Shown one piece after another: positions 2,974 through 9,326 of a DNA stretch of 64,000 nucleotides. How positions within the stretch are numbered: the first letter of the stretch is position 1; every line of letters starts with the position of its first letter. The DNA is from Saccharibacter floricola DSM 15669 (GTDB lineage: Bacteria; Pseudomonadota; Alphaproteobacteria; Acetobacterales; Acetobacteraceae): positions 310,001-374,000 of the forward strand of contig NZ_KB899333.1 in NCBI RefSeq assembly GCF_000378165.1, given 5' to 3'. The position numbers were made by a program, and so were the translations under genes. Below the pieces are notes generated by a model that saw only the letters and a program-made list of their open reading frames with translations, made no database searches and was not told where the DNA came from.

Positions 2974-4911
2974 ATGATTACTGCTCTGCGTCATTTTGTT
3001 GTTGACACTTGGATAGGTCGGGTCATTGCCCTCGCTATCTTTGTTGCGTTTATTGGCCTTAGTGGCAGTTTTATGGGGCTTTCTGGTGGCCTAGGAGGAA
3101 TGTCATCTGGCGATATAACGCAAATTGGCCACTATAAGATTACACCACGTGACTTTGCTCGTAGCATTCAGCAGCGTTTGGGGTATTTGCAACAAAGTGG
3201 TGTGCCTCTTAGTGCCTTGCGCTCGCCAGCAGCCCAGCAGGAAGTCAGTTTTGAATCCTTACGTGACCTTCTTACGCTCAAAGGTGCACAGCTTGCCGGG
3301 GAGCGGAACGGGGTGACACCGAGCGATGAGCTAATCCGCCAAACGGTTTTTTCAATGCCGGAGTTCCGTGATGCTCAGGGGCATTTTAGTGCGGACAAAA
3401 TGAACCAGCTGCTCCAGAGTAATGGATTGCAGCATCAGGATTTAATTGAGCAGGTTCGCCAGTCAAAAACAGCTCAAGCAACGATGTTTGGGCTGGCTCA
3501 AAATGTCACAGTGCCTAAAGCGGAACTCGACCAAATGGTTCGCTTTTATACTGAGGCTCGCAAAGTTGATCTGATACAGCTTCCCTTTTCTGCAGGGAAA
3601 GTTTCCTCTCAACCAAGTGACGCACAGTTGAAGCGTTTTTATGACAATCATCCATGGTTGTTTAAGGAGCCAGAATACCGTCATGCACGTATTGTTGTGC
3701 TTTTGCCGAGTAAGGTAGCGGTCACGGATGATGTGGTACGCGCGATCTATAAGCAGCGTGCACGTGACTATAATCAGCCAGAAACGCGCAGCGTAGAGGT
3801 GCTGGGCTTCGATAATGAGGCTACAGCACAGCAGGCAGCGCATAGCTGGCAGGATGGAGCGACATGGGAGAGTATTCAAAAAACTTTCCCGCAGGCTATT
3901 CCGGCGACGCTTCCCAATGCTCGCCCAGAGGATCTGCCCGATGAAGCGTTGTCGAAAGCGGCTTTTTTGGCGCATTCGGGTCAAGTTATGGCGCCGGTTA
4001 AAACGGCTATGGGGTGGAGTGTTGTGCATGTCACAAGCATTACGGCACCTCATCAGGTTAGTTTTGAGCAGGCAGCACCGGAGATTCGTGCAGAGGTTCA
4101 GAAGGCTGAGCCTTCTGTTGTGCCGTCTCAGCATATGCAGGCGTTTCAGGAAGCTGTTGCTGGCTCAACAGAGCTTGATAAAATCCCAGCAGATATTGGC
4201 GCCGTTCCCGTCGAAGGCACGCTTGATGCGCAGGGGATGACGGCCGGGGGCTCCCCAGCTCCTCTCCCAGGGGATGAGGCAACGCGCAAGGCGATTGTGC
4301 AACAGGTTTTCTCACAGGCAAAGGGGGACTATCCGCACGTTGTCTCTCTTCCTAACGGAGGCGGCTTTGCTGTTGTGGTGGCAAATGTTCAGCCTGGACA
4401 GCAAAAAGCGTTTGATACGGTACGTGCGGATGTAACGACTGCATGGCAGGGAGAGCAGCAAAAGCGCGCGCAGGAAGCACGTGCGACTGCTTTATATCAG
4501 AGCGCAAAGAAAGACGGGCTACAGCACGCCTTATCTGGTCAGCCTGAAGAAGCAAGTCTTCGTAAGGACGAGCGTTTTTCTCGCTTGCAAAAGCGGAGCG
4601 ACATGCCTGAGCTCATCAATCGTGCGGCTCTAAACCAAAATGTTGGCCAGACGGCAATGCTCCAAGAGGGGAATAGTTTTTGGTTGGTTCAGGTGACGGG
4701 AAGTGCGGCTCCTGCCACGGGTGAGCAGGAGGCTGTGCGCCAACGTGTTGAACAACAGCTTCTCCAAGGGTTGCAAGGTGATCTTATCGAAAGCCTAGGT
4801 AGTAGCTATCAGCACGAAACGTCCCATCGCGCTTTGAATACAGAGCTTTTTCATCAAGTCAGTGAGCAAATTTTGGGCCGCCTTGTTGGCGGTGCAGGGC
4901 AAGGTCAGTAA
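2974..4911 (+). CDS. PpiD/SurA-like membrane-anchored peptidyl-prolyl isomerase
   Basis: Likely periplasmic chaperone that holds proteins leaving the Sec channel. After a short cytoplasmic MITALRHF segment there is one membrane helix (about residues 13-35), then a SurA-type N-terminal chaperone region (residues about 45-190), a central parvulin-like region (about 225-365) and a long, Gln-rich C-terminal part, total 645 residues, as in PpiD. A GTG at 2959 is in frame, but the ATG at 2974 gives the typical PpiD start. The parvulin domain is divergent, so isomerase activity is uncertain. Its stop overlaps the trpE start (TAATG), so it is co-transcribed with the trp genes, an order also known in other acetic acid bacteria. 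Confidence 0.85.
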   Translation: MITALRHFVVDTWIGRVIALAIFVAFIGLSGSFMGLSGGLGGMSSGDITQIGHYKITPRDFARSIQQRLGYLQQSGVPLSALRSPAAQQEVSFESLRDLLTLKGAQLAGERNGVTPSDELIRQTVFSMPEFRDAQGHFSADKMNQLLQSNGLQHQDLIEQVRQSKTAQATMFGLAQNVTVPKAELDQMVRFYTEARKVDLIQLPFSAGKVSSQPSDAQLKRFYDNHPWLFKEPEYRHARIVVLLPSKVAVTDDVVRAIYKQRARDYNQPETRSVEVLGFDNEATAQQAAHSWQDGATWESIQKTFPQAIPATLPNARPEDLPDEALSKAAFLAHSGQVMAPVKTAMGWSVVHVTSITAPHQVSFEQAAPEIRAEVQKAEPSVVPSQHMQAFQEAVAGSTELDKIPADIGAVPVEGTLDAQGMTAGGSPAPLPGDEATRKAIVQQVFSQAKGDYPHVVSLPNGGGFAVVVANVQPGQQKAFDTVRADVTTAWQGEQQKRAQEARATALYQSAKKDGLQHALSGQPEEASLRKDERFSRLQKRSDMPELINRAALNQNVGQTAMLQEGNSFWLVQVTGSAAPATGEQEAVRQRVEQQLLQGLQGDLIESLGSSYQHETSHRALNTELFHQVSEQILGRLVGGAGQGQ

Positions 4912-6380
4912 TGAACGATATTCTTTATAGTGTTGAGGCAGCAGACCTGCTGACGCCGTTATCCGTGTTTCTACGGTTGGCAGAATTGCCTGATGACCCT
5001 TATCGTCTGTTTTTTGAAAGCGTTGAGGGTGGAGAGGCGCGCGGTCGTTATTCTATCATCGCGTTGATGCCTGATACGGTTTGGGTCTGTCAGGATGGCC
5101 AGGCGAAGCGCGATGGCGTTGTGCAAGAAGAAGGGCCGCTTCCCTCGCTCAATAAGCTGATTACGGAAAGTCGTATGGAGCTTCCTGAAGAGCTCCCACC
5201 CATGATTGGTGGGGTCTTTGGGGTGTTGGGCTACGATATGGTGCGTCAGATGGAGGTTTTGCCTCATGCACCAGAAAATGACTTAGACCTTCCAGAAGGC
5301 GTGATGATTCGCCCACGTCTTTTTGCTGTTTTTGATACGGTGCGCGACGAGCTCATTCTGGCAGCTCCTGTGCGTCATAAGGATGGACGTGAAGCAGCTG
5401 CTGAGCTGTTGGAAAAAGCGCGTGAGGCACTGCGTCAGCCTCTCTCTTACGAGGCTGAGGGGCTGCCAGAGGGAACGCAGCTCCATGAACCGCAGTCCAA
5501 TGTAACGCCTGATCAGTTTCTATCGAATGTGTTGCGGGCGAAAGACTATATTGCTGCTGGGGATGCGTTCCAGGTTGTGCCTAGTCAGCGTTTTCAAACG
5601 GCTTTTCCGCTCTCACCTCTCGCTTTGTATCGCAGTTTGCGCCGCATTAACCCAGCGCCTTTCTTGTTTCTGATGGAGCTGGGGGCTTTTACGCTCGTGG
5701 GCTCATCACCGGAGATCTTGGTGCGTTTGCGGCGGGGACAGGTAACAGTACGTCCATTGGCCGGCACGAGGCCGCGCGGCAAGGATCGTGCACAGGATCA
5801 GGCTTTGGAGAAAGAACTGCTTTCTGATGCAAAAGAGCTTGCTGAGCATTTAATGCTGATTGATCTGGGACGGAACGATGTGGGGCGTGTCTCACAGCCT
5901 GGCTCTGTTGCGGTGCCTGACCAATTTGTGATTGAGCGCTATAGCCATGTGATGCATATTTCCTCCACGGTAACGGGGCAGATTAAGCCGGAGCTTGGGG
6001 CGTTAGACGCTCTTTCGGCCGCCTTCCCAGCAGGGACGTTAACGGGGGCTCCTAAAATCCGCACCATGGAAATTATCGACGAACTTGAGCCAACGCGCCG
6101 AGGGCCTTATGCGGGCTGTGTGGGGTATTTTGGCGCTGATGGTGAGATGGATACGTGCATTGGTCTGCGGATGGCGCTGTTAAAAGACGGCCAGATGTAT
6201 GTGCAGGCAGGCTGTGGCGTGGTGGCTGATTCTGAGCCAGAAGCGGAATATCAGGAGACGCGCGCGAAGGCACGGGCCCTTTTCTCCGCGGCTGAACATG
6301 CGGTGGAAATGGCTATACGGGTTGGAAAGCCGACGAACAATGCCCATCCTCAGTCAGTAACTGATGAGAAAAAGGGGTAG
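4911..6380 (+). CDS. trpE: Anthranilate synthase component I
   Basis: Makes anthranilate from chorismate with ammonia supplied by TrpG, the first committed step of tryptophan synthesis. The 489-residue protein has the N-terminal regulatory half (RGRYSIIAL), and the chorismate-binding half with FQVVPSQRF, PFLFLMELG, VGSSPEILVRL, PLAGTRPRG, LIDLGRNDVGRV and FPAGTLTGAPKIRTMEII. Start overlaps the upstream stop, and trpG follows 7 nt after the stop. I see no leader peptide or attenuator directly ahead, since the gene is fused transcriptionally to the PpiD-like gene. Confidence 0.96.
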   Translation: MNDILYSVEAADLLTPLSVFLRLAELPDDPYRLFFESVEGGEARGRYSIIALMPDTVWVCQDGQAKRDGVVQEEGPLPSLNKLITESRMELPEELPPMIGGVFGVLGYDMVRQMEVLPHAPENDLDLPEGVMIRPRLFAVFDTVRDELILAAPVRHKDGREAAAELLEKAREALRQPLSYEAEGLPEGTQLHEPQSNVTPDQFLSNVLRAKDYIAAGDAFQVVPSQRFQTAFPLSPLALYRSLRRINPAPFLFLMELGAFTLVGSSPEILVRLRRGQVTVRPLAGTRPRGKDRAQDQALEKELLSDAKELAEHLMLIDLGRNDVGRVSQPGSVAVPDQFVIERYSHVMHISSTVTGQIKPELGALDALSAAFPAGTLTGAPKIRTMEIIDELEPTRRGPYAGCVGYFGADGEMDTCIGLRMALLKDGQMYVQAGCGVVADSEPEAEYQETRAKARALFSAAEHAVEMAIRVGKPTNNAHPQSVTDEKKG

Positions 6381-6387
6381 AGGTCTG

Positions 6388-6975
6388 ATGATTCTTCTGA
6401 TTGATAATTACGATAGCTTTACCTTTAACCTCGTCCATCATTTTGGGGCGCTGGGCATTGAATGCCTCGTCAAACGTAACGACGCTCTCTCTGCGGAAGA
6501 GGCGATTGCTTTAAAGCCGGAAGCAATCGTGCTGTCTCCAGGGCCGTGCTCTCCTGATGAGGCTGGTATTTGTTGTGATGTGATCCGTTTGGCTGCGGGG
6601 AAGATCCCTGTCTTAGGCGTATGTTTAGGTCATCAGGCTATCGGACAGGTTTTCGGGGCTGATGTTGTGCGCGCTCCTGAGCCAATGCACGGCAAAATTA
6701 GCGCGATGCATCATGATGGAAGCGGTGTGTTTGAAGGGCTACCGGAGCCTGTGAATATGGTGCGCTATCACAGTCTTACGGTAAAACCGGAGAGCATTAC
6801 AGAACCTCTCATTGTTAATGCGCGCACAGAAGATGGAGTCGTTATGGGGCTTCGGCATCGTGATTACCCGATTCATGGTGTGCAGTTTCATCCAGAAAGC
6901 ATTGCGTCCGATTCTGGGCGTGCACTTCTCGCGAATTTCTTGCGTCTTGCCGGTGTCGTGAAGGAAAAAGCCTGA
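6388..6975 (+). CDS. trpG: Anthranilate synthase component II, glutamine amidotransferase
   Basis: Glutaminase subunit that hands ammonia to TrpE. Class I amidotransferase of 195 residues: MILLIDNYDSFTFNL start, oxyanion and nucleophile region VLGVCLGHQAIG (Cys), and HGVQFHPESIAS (His, Glu). The frame is open from an ATG at 6364, but that would overlap trpE and add a basic tail not seen in the family, whereas GGGGTAGAGG lies just before 6388. The stop TGA overlaps the trpD ATG at 6975. Confidence 0.95.
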   Translation: MILLIDNYDSFTFNLVHHFGALGIECLVKRNDALSAEEAIALKPEAIVLSPGPCSPDEAGICCDVIRLAAGKIPVLGVCLGHQAIGQVFGADVVRAPEPMHGKISAMHHDGSGVFEGLPEPVNMVRYHSLTVKPESITEPLIVNARTEDGVVMGLRHRDYPIHGVQFHPESIASDSGRALLANFLRLAGVVKEKA

Positions 6976-8288
6976 TGGGTGAGAAGGGGCAGATACCTTC
7001 TGTGAAAGCTTTGTTGAGAAAGGCGGTGTCAGCTGAGCCCTTTTCAGCAGAAGAGGCACGTTCGTTAGATGAAGGGGGTGTATGTGAACCCTCTTTATCT
7101 GATGCACAACGCGTAGCCTTTCTAACCGCTCTTTATGTACGTGGGGGAAGAGGTGAGGATTTTCGTTCGCTGTCTTGTTTCTCACGTATAGAGCTTATTC
7201 TAGCTGACTTGACGAGTGAGAAAGGCAGCGCATCTTCTTTCCCGAGCATGTTGAAAACGGTGCTATCGGGGGCTTCGTTGTCGGCCGAAAAGGCAGAAGA
7301 AGCTTTTGACGCGATTATGAGCGGCGCTGTATCTGAGGTTCAACTGGCGTCTTTTTTGACAGTTCTGCATATGCGGGGGGAAACGCCTGAAGAGCTTCTC
7401 GGGGCTGTCCGTACAGTACGGCGTCATATGGCGCCTCTTCGTCATGTTCCACCAAATGCGATTGATGTGTGCGGGACGGGAGGTGATGGTCTTGGCACGT
7501 TAAATGTCTCGACAGCGACAGCTTTCGTGCTGGCTGGGTTGGGGGTGGAGGTTGCCAAGCATGGTGGGCGTGCCTTGTCATCAAAGGCAGGGGCGACGGA
7601 CGTGCTGGAGGCTCTGGGTATTCCGGCAGACGGGGACGTAGCGCGTCAGGAACAACGCTTGCAACGCGATCATCTGGCTTTTCTAGCTGCGCCGTATCAT
7701 CATACAGCGATGAAAAAAGCGGCCTCCGTGCGCAAGGATCTGGGCTTTCGGACTTTATTTAATTTGCTAGGCCCTCTTTGTAACCCAGCAGGAGTAAAGC
7801 GGCAGCTTGTCGGTGTCTTTGACCAACGCTGGTGTGCTCCCGTAGCGGATGTGCTGGGGCAACTTGGCGGAGAATCGATTTGGGTTGTTCAAGGCGAGAC
7901 TGATGAAGGCCCGATTGATGAGCTGACCCTTGCTGGGCCAAGTCATATTTCTGTGTGGGAACAAGACCAGAGACGTGAGGTGACGATCACACCGGAAATG
8001 GCGGGTTTTTCTGTGCAACCTGTGCGTGAAGTTCGTGGAGGAGCGCCTCAAGAGAATGCACAGCGTATGGAAGCGTTATTTAAAGGCGAAAAAAGCTGTT
8101 ATCGCGATACTGTGTTGCTTAATGCAGCTGTGGCTCTCCACGTCGCTGGGCGTGGCTCTTTATGGGCCGGAGAGCAGGTTTCCTCGCGATCATTGCAGCA
8201 CCTTATTGCCCAAGCTGCGCGCTCATTAGACGATGGTTTTGCTTTGGAGGCTTTGACGCGCGCGCAAAGAGGTGTAAGGGCACAGTGA
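6975..8288 (+). CDS. trpD: Anthranilate phosphoribosyltransferase with duplicated N-terminal domain
   Basis: Joins anthranilate and PRPP to phosphoribosylanthranilate. The core from about residue 89 is a normal TrpD: helical N-domain, then DVCGTGGDGLGTLNVSTATA (PRPP loop, residues 164-183), KHGGRALSSKAGATDVLEALG and FNLLGPLCNPA. At 437 residues it is about 95 longer than usual. The extra N-terminal segment (residues about 11-66, with SAEEAR, AFLTALYVRGG) mirrors residues about 91-146 (SAEKAE, SFLTVLHMRGE), so the helical domain appears twice. The start is fixed by the ATGA-type overlap with trpG. Whether the extra copy dimerises, regulates or is idle is unknown. Confidence 0.92.
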   Translation: MGEKGQIPSVKALLRKAVSAEPFSAEEARSLDEGGVCEPSLSDAQRVAFLTALYVRGGRGEDFRSLSCFSRIELILADLTSEKGSASSFPSMLKTVLSGASLSAEKAEEAFDAIMSGAVSEVQLASFLTVLHMRGETPEELLGAVRTVRRHMAPLRHVPPNAIDVCGTGGDGLGTLNVSTATAFVLAGLGVEVAKHGGRALSSKAGATDVLEALGIPADGDVARQEQRLQRDHLAFLAAPYHHTAMKKAASVRKDLGFRTLFNLLGPLCNPAGVKRQLVGVFDQRWCAPVADVLGQLGGESIWVVQGETDEGPIDELTLAGPSHISVWEQDQRREVTITPEMAGFSVQPVREVRGGAPQENAQRMEALFKGEKSCYRDTVLLNAAVALHVAGRGSLWAGEQVSSRSLQHLIAQAARSLDDGFALEALTRAQRGVRAQ

Positions 8289-8336: not shown

Positions 8337-9326
8337 ATGATTTTCTTGCCACAGCGGCCGATGACTGCCTTTGCTCCATCAGAGTCTGACGGACAGTCTG
8401 CGGTTTCTGATGCGGCTCCCGAGCAAAAACCGGAAGCCGAGAAAGCCGAAACGGTTGCAGCCGATCACGGCGAGGCCGGCTCCAATGAAGGAAACGCGCC
8501 TTCAAAGAATGCTGAAGGTGAGGGTGACAAAACCCCTGACGTGCTTAAGCGCATTTGTGCGCGGACGCTTCTTGATGTTGAGCAGCGCTTACAGGTGATG
8601 TCACTCAAAGAGATTGCCGCGAAAGCGCGCGAGGTTACGACCCCGACGCGTGGGTTTGGGCAGGCGCTTCAACATATCACTGCCGATCGGCGCGTGGGGT
8701 TGATTGCTGAGGTAAAGAAGGCGTCGCCTTCGGCCGGTGTTTTGCGGCCTGATTATGATCCTGCTGCAATTGCAAGATCCTACCAAGCTGCTGGCGCGAG
8801 CTGCATCTCTGTTCTAACTGAAGGGTCTTGCTTCCACGGGAGTACGGATGATCTAAAGGCCGTGCGTGAGGCGTGCAGCTTGCCGATTTTGCGGAAGGAT
8901 TTCATCCTTCATCCATGGCAAGTGCATGAGAGCCGCCTCATCGGGGCTGATTGCATTTTGCTCATTATGGCAGCTCTTGAGGAAAATCAGGCAGCTGAGC
9001 TTATTGCATTGGCACGTGGTCTGGATATGGATGTCCTGTTGGAAGTCCATAATGAAGACGAACTCACACGTGCGTTGGCTTATGATAGCTTCCTCATTGG
9101 CATTAATAACCGTGATCTCAAAACACTGAAAACGGACATTCAAACGACATTGGATCTCGCTCCTAATGTTCCGCCGGATCGTTTGGTTGTGTCAGAAAGC
9201 GGTATCCGTGTACAAGAAGACCTTGAGAAGGTAGGTGAGGCTGGATGCAGCGCCGTCTTGGTTGGAGAATCTTTGTTGAAAGATGTTGACCCAGGCGCAG
9301 CAGCACGACGTTTGCTTGGTTTTTAA
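8337..9326 (+). CDS. trpC: Indole-3-glycerol phosphate synthase with acidic N-terminal extension
   Basis: Closes the indole ring in tryptophan synthesis. From about residue 66 it is a complete TrpC barrel: TPDVLKRICA start, EVKKASPSAGVLR, SCISVLTEGSCFHGS, PILRKDFI, GADCILLI, LLEVHNEDEL, GINNRDLKTL and VSESGI. In front is a 60-65 residue stretch rich in Glu, Ala, Lys and Pro with no family match that I know. An ATG at 8361 would shorten it only slightly, and no start nearer the barrel has a good ribosome site. It is monofunctional (no TrpF part). trpF, trpB and trpA are not in the window. Confidence 0.92.
   Translation: MIFLPQRPMTAFAPSESDGQSAVSDAAPEQKPEAEKAETVAADHGEAGSNEGNAPSKNAEGEGDKTPDVLKRICARTLLDVEQRLQVMSLKEIAAKAREVTTPTRGFGQALQHITADRRVGLIAEVKKASPSAGVLRPDYDPAAIARSYQAAGASCISVLTEGSCFHGSTDDLKAVREACSLPILRKDFILHPWQVHESRLIGADCILLIMAALEENQAAELIALARGLDMDVLLEVHNEDELTRALAYDSFLIGINNRDLKTLKTDIQTTLDLAPNVPPDRLVVSESGIRVQEDLEKVGEAGCSAVLVGESLLKDVDPGAAARRLLGF

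Follow-up and report, generated by a model that had tools for sequence, protein, structure and literature searches.

TrpD is a type III PRT built from a helical N-terminal domain (PF02885) and a catalytic alpha/beta domain (PF00591), and structures have been solved for the enzymes of M. tuberculosis (5c1r, 1zvw) and S. solfataricus (1gxb). One account gives the usual length of TrpD as 330 to 380 residues and describes the solved proteins as homodimers that associate via helices 1 and 3 of the N-terminal bundle together with helix 8, an arrangement important to stability but without a direct part in catalysis (PMC9835598). The same account places the TrpD2/YbiB proteins in the same two-domain fold family and describes them as lacking the PRPP motif. 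A second paper implicates residues Ile36 and Met47 in dimerization of the Sulfolobus enzyme and assigns the DE motif to metal binding and the KHGN motif to anthranilate and PRPP (PMC5537072). The view that the N-terminal domain normally forms the dimer interface, from which the earlier note on this DNA set out, is thus in print.

Here we analyze the trpD gene in a 64,000-nucleotide stretch of the Saccharibacter floricola DSM 15669 genome (the window). By sequence comparison, HMM searches, and structure modeling, the N-terminal four-helix bundle of this TrpD is duplicated in tandem and in frame. The 437-residue protein shares its trp operon position with ordinary TrpD but adds about 85 N-terminal residues, which make up a second Glycos_trans_3N (3N) bundle. 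No description of such a form was known to the earlier note, and we likewise found no literature on a TrpD with two N-terminal bundles in a search by title and start of abstract, with most subscription journals outside its scope; domain databases may already list the doubled architecture.

RESULTS

The trp operon and the start of trpD

The genes are arranged in the order trpE-trpG-trpD-trpC (Table 1), where the first two ORFs are named from their sequence and are presumably trpE and trpG. The TrpF and TrpA families are present elsewhere in the genome, and a genome search found no second TrpD, the window protein being the only match. The TrpC protein has, counted from its annotated start, about 70 extra residues, acidic and alanine-rich, ahead of its Pfam domain; the sister species (G002) has a nearly identical stretch, and the other Saccharibacter genome (G001) has a differing one.

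At several other loci, trpG and trpD form one stop-free frame encoding a TrpG-TrpD fusion (L004 in genome G063, L020 in G042, and L063, L065, L066, and L070, the last four judged on the part before the trpD core). These frames span several Acetobacteraceae and other Alphaproteobacteria. The fusions and the window protein both have an N-terminal module added to TrpD, but the module in the window is a second 3N bundle and not an amidotransferase, and trpG is a separate gene.

The earlier note took the trpD frame to be intact and its start to be fixed by the overlap with trpG, and both points hold. The frame is uninterrupted and is retained, together with both bundle copies, in the sister species (94% identical). 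The ATG overlaps the trpG stop codon (TGATG) and lies 9 nt downstream of a Shine-Dalgarno-like AAGGA, and the bases before the start are the same in the sister species. Agreement with AGGAGG is 4 of 6 bases before this ATG, compared with 1 of 6 before Met92 and 2 of 6 before TTG79. Translation from one of these internal codons, which would leave the upstream stretch untranslated, could draw on the presence of Met92, also kept in the sister species. However, neither codon is preceded by a Shine-Dalgarno-like site, Met92 is part of helix 1 of the canonical bundle in the AlphaFold2 model, and the upstream stretch shows both homology to PF02885 and purifying selection, so that we regard a start at either codon, of which the earlier note had named the one near residue 92 as a possible objection, as scarcely credible. 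Judged on these features, the annotated start is sound.

Table 1. Features of the trpD region, with positions in the window
Feature	Positions	Strand	Basis
trpE, operon neighbor	4911..6380	+	ORF listing; name from sequence
trpG, stop overlapping trpD start	6364..6975	+	ORF listing; name from sequence
Shine-Dalgarno-like AAGGA, 9 nt 5' of trpD ATG	6961..6965	+	Sequence; identical bases in sister species G002
trpD, 437 aa, doubled N-terminal domain	6975..8288	+	ORF listing, translation, Pfam scan
First helical bundle copy, residues 12-79	7008..7211	+	Pfam, copy-copy alignment, AlphaFold2
Pfam-matched part of first copy, residues 12-57	7008-7145	+	
Linker between copies, residues 80-88	7212..7238	+	AlphaFold2 secondary structure
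Second, canonical N-terminal bundle, residues 89-152	7239..7430	+	Pfam, alignment, AlphaFold2
Catalytic alpha/beta domain PF00591, residues 161-397, CGTGGD and DE motifs	7455..8165	+	Pfam, alignment
trpC (IGPS, PF00218)	8337..9326	+	ORF listing, Pfam

Two N-terminal helical bundles

Each N-terminal segment matches PF02885 when scanned alone. Residues 1 to 82 match over profile positions 2 to 46 of 63 (23.8 bits, E = 3.9e-5), slightly below the curated cutoff of 26 bits, and residues 83 to 152 match over positions 2 to 63 (77.5 bits, E = 6.7e-22; best stretch, residues 92 to 152). A six-frame search of the genome returns two PF02885 matches at E <= 0.01. Local alignment of the copies with each other (BLOSUM62) scores 63, a value reached by 0 of 2,000 shuffles (best, 48; mean, 25.7). 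As sole query, the first segment matches seven other genomes of the family (E = 8e-4 to 6e-3), and in five of them (G063, G050, G320, G343, and G364) the match falls on TrpD's canonical N domain; the other two matches are in G120 and G369, the latter in a frame of 133 aa that contains a stop. Because the Pfam, shuffle, and single-query results agree, the homology of the first copy to the TrpD N domain is real, though diverged. The second copy proposed by the earlier note is thereby confirmed, and the concern that the first segment might be unrelated falls away.

A profile of first copies gives weak matches to the N domains of solved TrpDs (E = 9e-4 and worse). Weak PDB matches of first-copy profile A3 to an internalin, with the score spread over several poor pieces, and to phage proteins were set aside as chance. 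A viral_contigs search with residues 1 to 152 returned six stretches that fit a pattern, none of them a relative.

AlphaFold2 modeling, proposed earlier as a check on the doubling, yields four helices in each copy: residues 10-18, 25-32, 43-58, and 67-79 in the first and 89-97, 104-115, 121-134, and 138-151 in the second. Similarly, the model of Komagataeibacter melomenusus TrpD, a doubled relative described below, has helices at 11-23, 30-41, 47-59, and 67-75 and then at 83-96, 103-114, 120-133, and 137-150. Mean pLDDT and pTM are 94.1 and 0.92 for the window monomer (75 to 92 per ten-residue block over residues 1 to 80) and 93.0 and 0.91 for the K. melomenusus monomer, from alignments in which the extra copy is present in only four rows each. 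A pTM this high hints at a definite position for the extra copy in the model. From the modeled helices it follows that the whole bundle is doubled, with the fourth helix of the first copy (residues 67 to 79) diverged past the reach of Pfam. The copies were therefore correctly located at residues 11-66 and 91-146 in the earlier note, with limits slightly short of the modeled helices, which end at 79 and 151.

Residues 86 to 437 of the model superpose on solved TrpD 5c1r_B with a Z score of 50.0 (rmsd 1.7 over 341 residues, 34% identity), and superpositions on solved TrpDs have Z scores of 44 to 50 among the 50 matches listed. Whole-protein alignments to solved TrpDs begin at residue 79 or later among the matches listed. 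By itself, the first copy was matched by nothing among Foldseek's best 50 or in the VIA list, a result that says nothing on its fold.

An ordinary catalytic core

Both sequence and model identify the catalytic fold and main motifs as those of an ordinary TrpD. PF00591 (Glycos_transf_3) matches the core with an E value of 8.4e-72, and C166-D171 (CGTGGD) and D315-E316 (DE) are invariant across 60 aligned proteins; solved TrpDs share both motifs. We take CGTGGD to be the PRPP motif. Its retention separates the window protein from TrpD2/YbiB, which lack the PRPP motif. At the KHGN position, K195, H196, and G197 are followed by G198 in place of Asn. The resulting KHGG looks like a lineage trait, since two single-domain relatives, L003 and L005, share it.

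Distribution of doubled TrpD

An earlier treatment of the doubling as a singleton does not stand. Alignment with other Acetobacteraceae TrpDs, another check proposed in the earlier note, relates the first segment to the TrpD N domain and finds the doubling again in the sister species and in Komagataeibacter. Two of the three Saccharibacter genomes (the window's, G000, and G002) have the doubled form, and G001 has a single domain; in Komagataeibacter, a genus assigned by identity with named loci (genus g61), the doubled form is present in 16 of 19 genomes and a single domain in the other 3. Extra copies occur in K. oboediens (L053), K. xylinus (L064), and K. melomenusus (L092), and these first copies alone match PF02885 with E values of 1.7e-6, 2.9e-5, and 0.011, respectively. 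The layout is that of the window protein (extra 3N copy, linker, canonical copy, and core), but the extra copies are 25 to 28% identical to the window's and the core falls in another clade. Among the loci returned, the nearest named relative of the window TrpD is from Bombella (66%). An apparent doubled TrpD in Asticcacaulis (L108) was rejected, as its alignment ran through a stop and lay in a frame other than that of the local trpG.

All distribution surveys were made within Pseudomonadota. Across 397 genomes of the family, profile A3 identifies at least 12 doubled TrpDs (G000, G002, and 10 of the 13 listed g61 genomes) at E = 1e-5, a threshold that may let an extra copy of much greater divergence go unseen. 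With the window first copy as sole query, strong matches in the same genomes are confined to G000 and G002; the Komagataeibacter copy was missed because it is too diverged, and was found with the profile. Over the class, a doubled-TrpD profile (A4) matches 104 of 142 genomes, some of the matches being partial and four starting at position 108 or later. Only the window's match starts before model position 60 (the next starts at 62), and none of those in the 103 other Alphaproteobacteria genomes extends into the first copy.

We also ran a canonical-domain HMM over the DNA preceding the canonical domain (at most 450 bases) at 157 loci, with several genes represented repeatedly (L024 and L028 were dropped for want of the motif, and L031-L039, L169, and L170 were left out). 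The extra copy is recovered in all 33 doubled loci at 14 to 30 bits, and no upstream remnant is detected in three frames in the other 124, where the next best score is 1.1 bits. To judge from these upstream bases, the single-domain relatives examined, including those of the same genera, are without a decayed remnant.

One origin or two

Trees of the TrpD core built without the N domains (76 rows and 40 rows) separate the two doubled groups widely, and both groups have single-domain neighbors. Forcing all doubled rows of the 40-row tree into one clade costs 165.6 log-likelihood units and is rejected (p-AU 1.85e-5), and the starred branches of the core tree force at least two changes of the doubled label. 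The Komagataeibacter doubled rows may or may not form one clade (p-AU 0.286). Because the core tree rejects a single doubled clade and single-domain relatives carry no remnant, two doublings are the simplest reading, if not a proven one, and the Komagataeibacter doubling is probably an independent event.

A single doubling in an ancestor of these acetic acid bacteria followed by many losses would be compatible with any reading of function and bears on origin only. The tree of the short copies (55 columns) is unresolved and leaves a clade uniting every first copy statistically acceptable (p-AU 0.46), and the 3N profile match ends alike in both lineages, at position 46-47 of 63. However, counted on the 40-row core tree, this history asks for about ten losses, as against two gains and one loss, and the three-frame scan showed no remnant before single-domain trpD at the loci covered. 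Further, a Komagataeibacter first-copy profile gives the first copies of the window and its sister only 11 to 12 bits (ranks 115 and 106), and the sequences closest to the window first copy are canonical domains, of which several, but not all, belong to relatives of the window. We consider one ancestral doubling improbable.

Constraint on the extra copy

Between the window and the sister species, dN/dS (NG86) is 0.33 for residues 1 to 88, 0.09 for residues 89 to 155, and 0.05 for residues 156 to 437, and identity is 86% in the first copy and 93% in the second. As these substitution ratios indicate, constraint on the window first copy is weaker than on the second, yet selection on it is purifying. 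In Komagataeibacter, dN/dS is 0.08 to 0.40 for the first copy and 0.10 to 0.23 for the rest of the protein over six pairs (a seventh, of unequal length, was dropped), and the first copy has the lower value in three of the six. Mean pairwise identity among 16 distinct Komagataeibacter proteins (19 fetched) is 61% in the first copy, 72% in the second, and 83% in the core, and the first copy contains a DPVELE stretch that is unchanged in all 16. Linker length varies in this genus by up to about 20 residues; in L163, L165, and L166 the linker between the bundles is 14 to 20 residues longer and rich in Ala, Pro, Gly, and Thr.

DISCUSSION

We propose that the canonical copy (residues 89 to 152) would take the usual place of the N-terminal domain, next to the active site, and that the extra copy (residues 12 to 79) would be a tethered bundle, evolving faster and still held by selection. 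Since TrpD dimers use helices 1, 3, and 8 and the dimer serves stability, we infer that the extra bundle acts via the self-association face of the N domain and may tune oligomeric state or stability, not chemistry. As read from alignments, Sulfolobus Ile36 and Met47 correspond to Val122 and Met133 of the canonical copy, and their counterparts in the first copy are Ala44 and Val55. Taken as a whole, the account of a sole TrpD with an ordinary core and a tandem-doubled bundle, a Komagataeibacter doubling that is most simply independent, and an extra bundle that tunes self-association or stability stands at about an even chance of being right.

Counting against this account are the lower constraint on the first copy, the variable linker, and the absence of the doubling from 3 of 19 Komagataeibacter and 1 of 3 Saccharibacter genomes, all of which also fit a dispensable decoration. 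A tandem duplication that is neither helpful nor harmful, with weak selection against misfolding only, would likewise leave a first copy that evolves faster and is patchily present in both genera. However, dN/dS is well under 1 in both lineages and in half of the Komagataeibacter pairs is lower in the first copy than elsewhere, DPVELE is unchanged in every distinct Komagataeibacter protein, and most genomes of that genus keep the doubling; near neutrality seems to us possible but doubtful. The extra bundle could instead be a docking piece for TrpG or TrpE that holds anthranilate synthase near TrpD, by analogy with the TrpG-TrpD fusions. The position of trpG directly upstream, with its stop overlapping the trpD start, and the in-frame TrpG-TrpD of a relative without the doubling (L004) are consistent with such docking, which we nonetheless think distinctly unlikely.

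Tuning of self-association by the extra bundle might also take a bolder form. Twice independently, in Saccharibacter-like bacteria and in Komagataeibacter, TrpD could have gained a copy of its own dimerization domain that acts as a pseudo-partner by sitting on the dimer face, so that the protein would be either a self-capped monomer or a higher oligomer of a new kind. We think this unlikely as it stands; if true, it would be a convergent rewiring of quaternary structure through domain duplication. The doubled TrpD changes no view of TrpD chemistry. Having apparently arisen twice, with close single-domain forms in both genera, it lends itself to comparisons that ask why TrpD dimerizes and whether an extra copy of the interface domain alters assembly.
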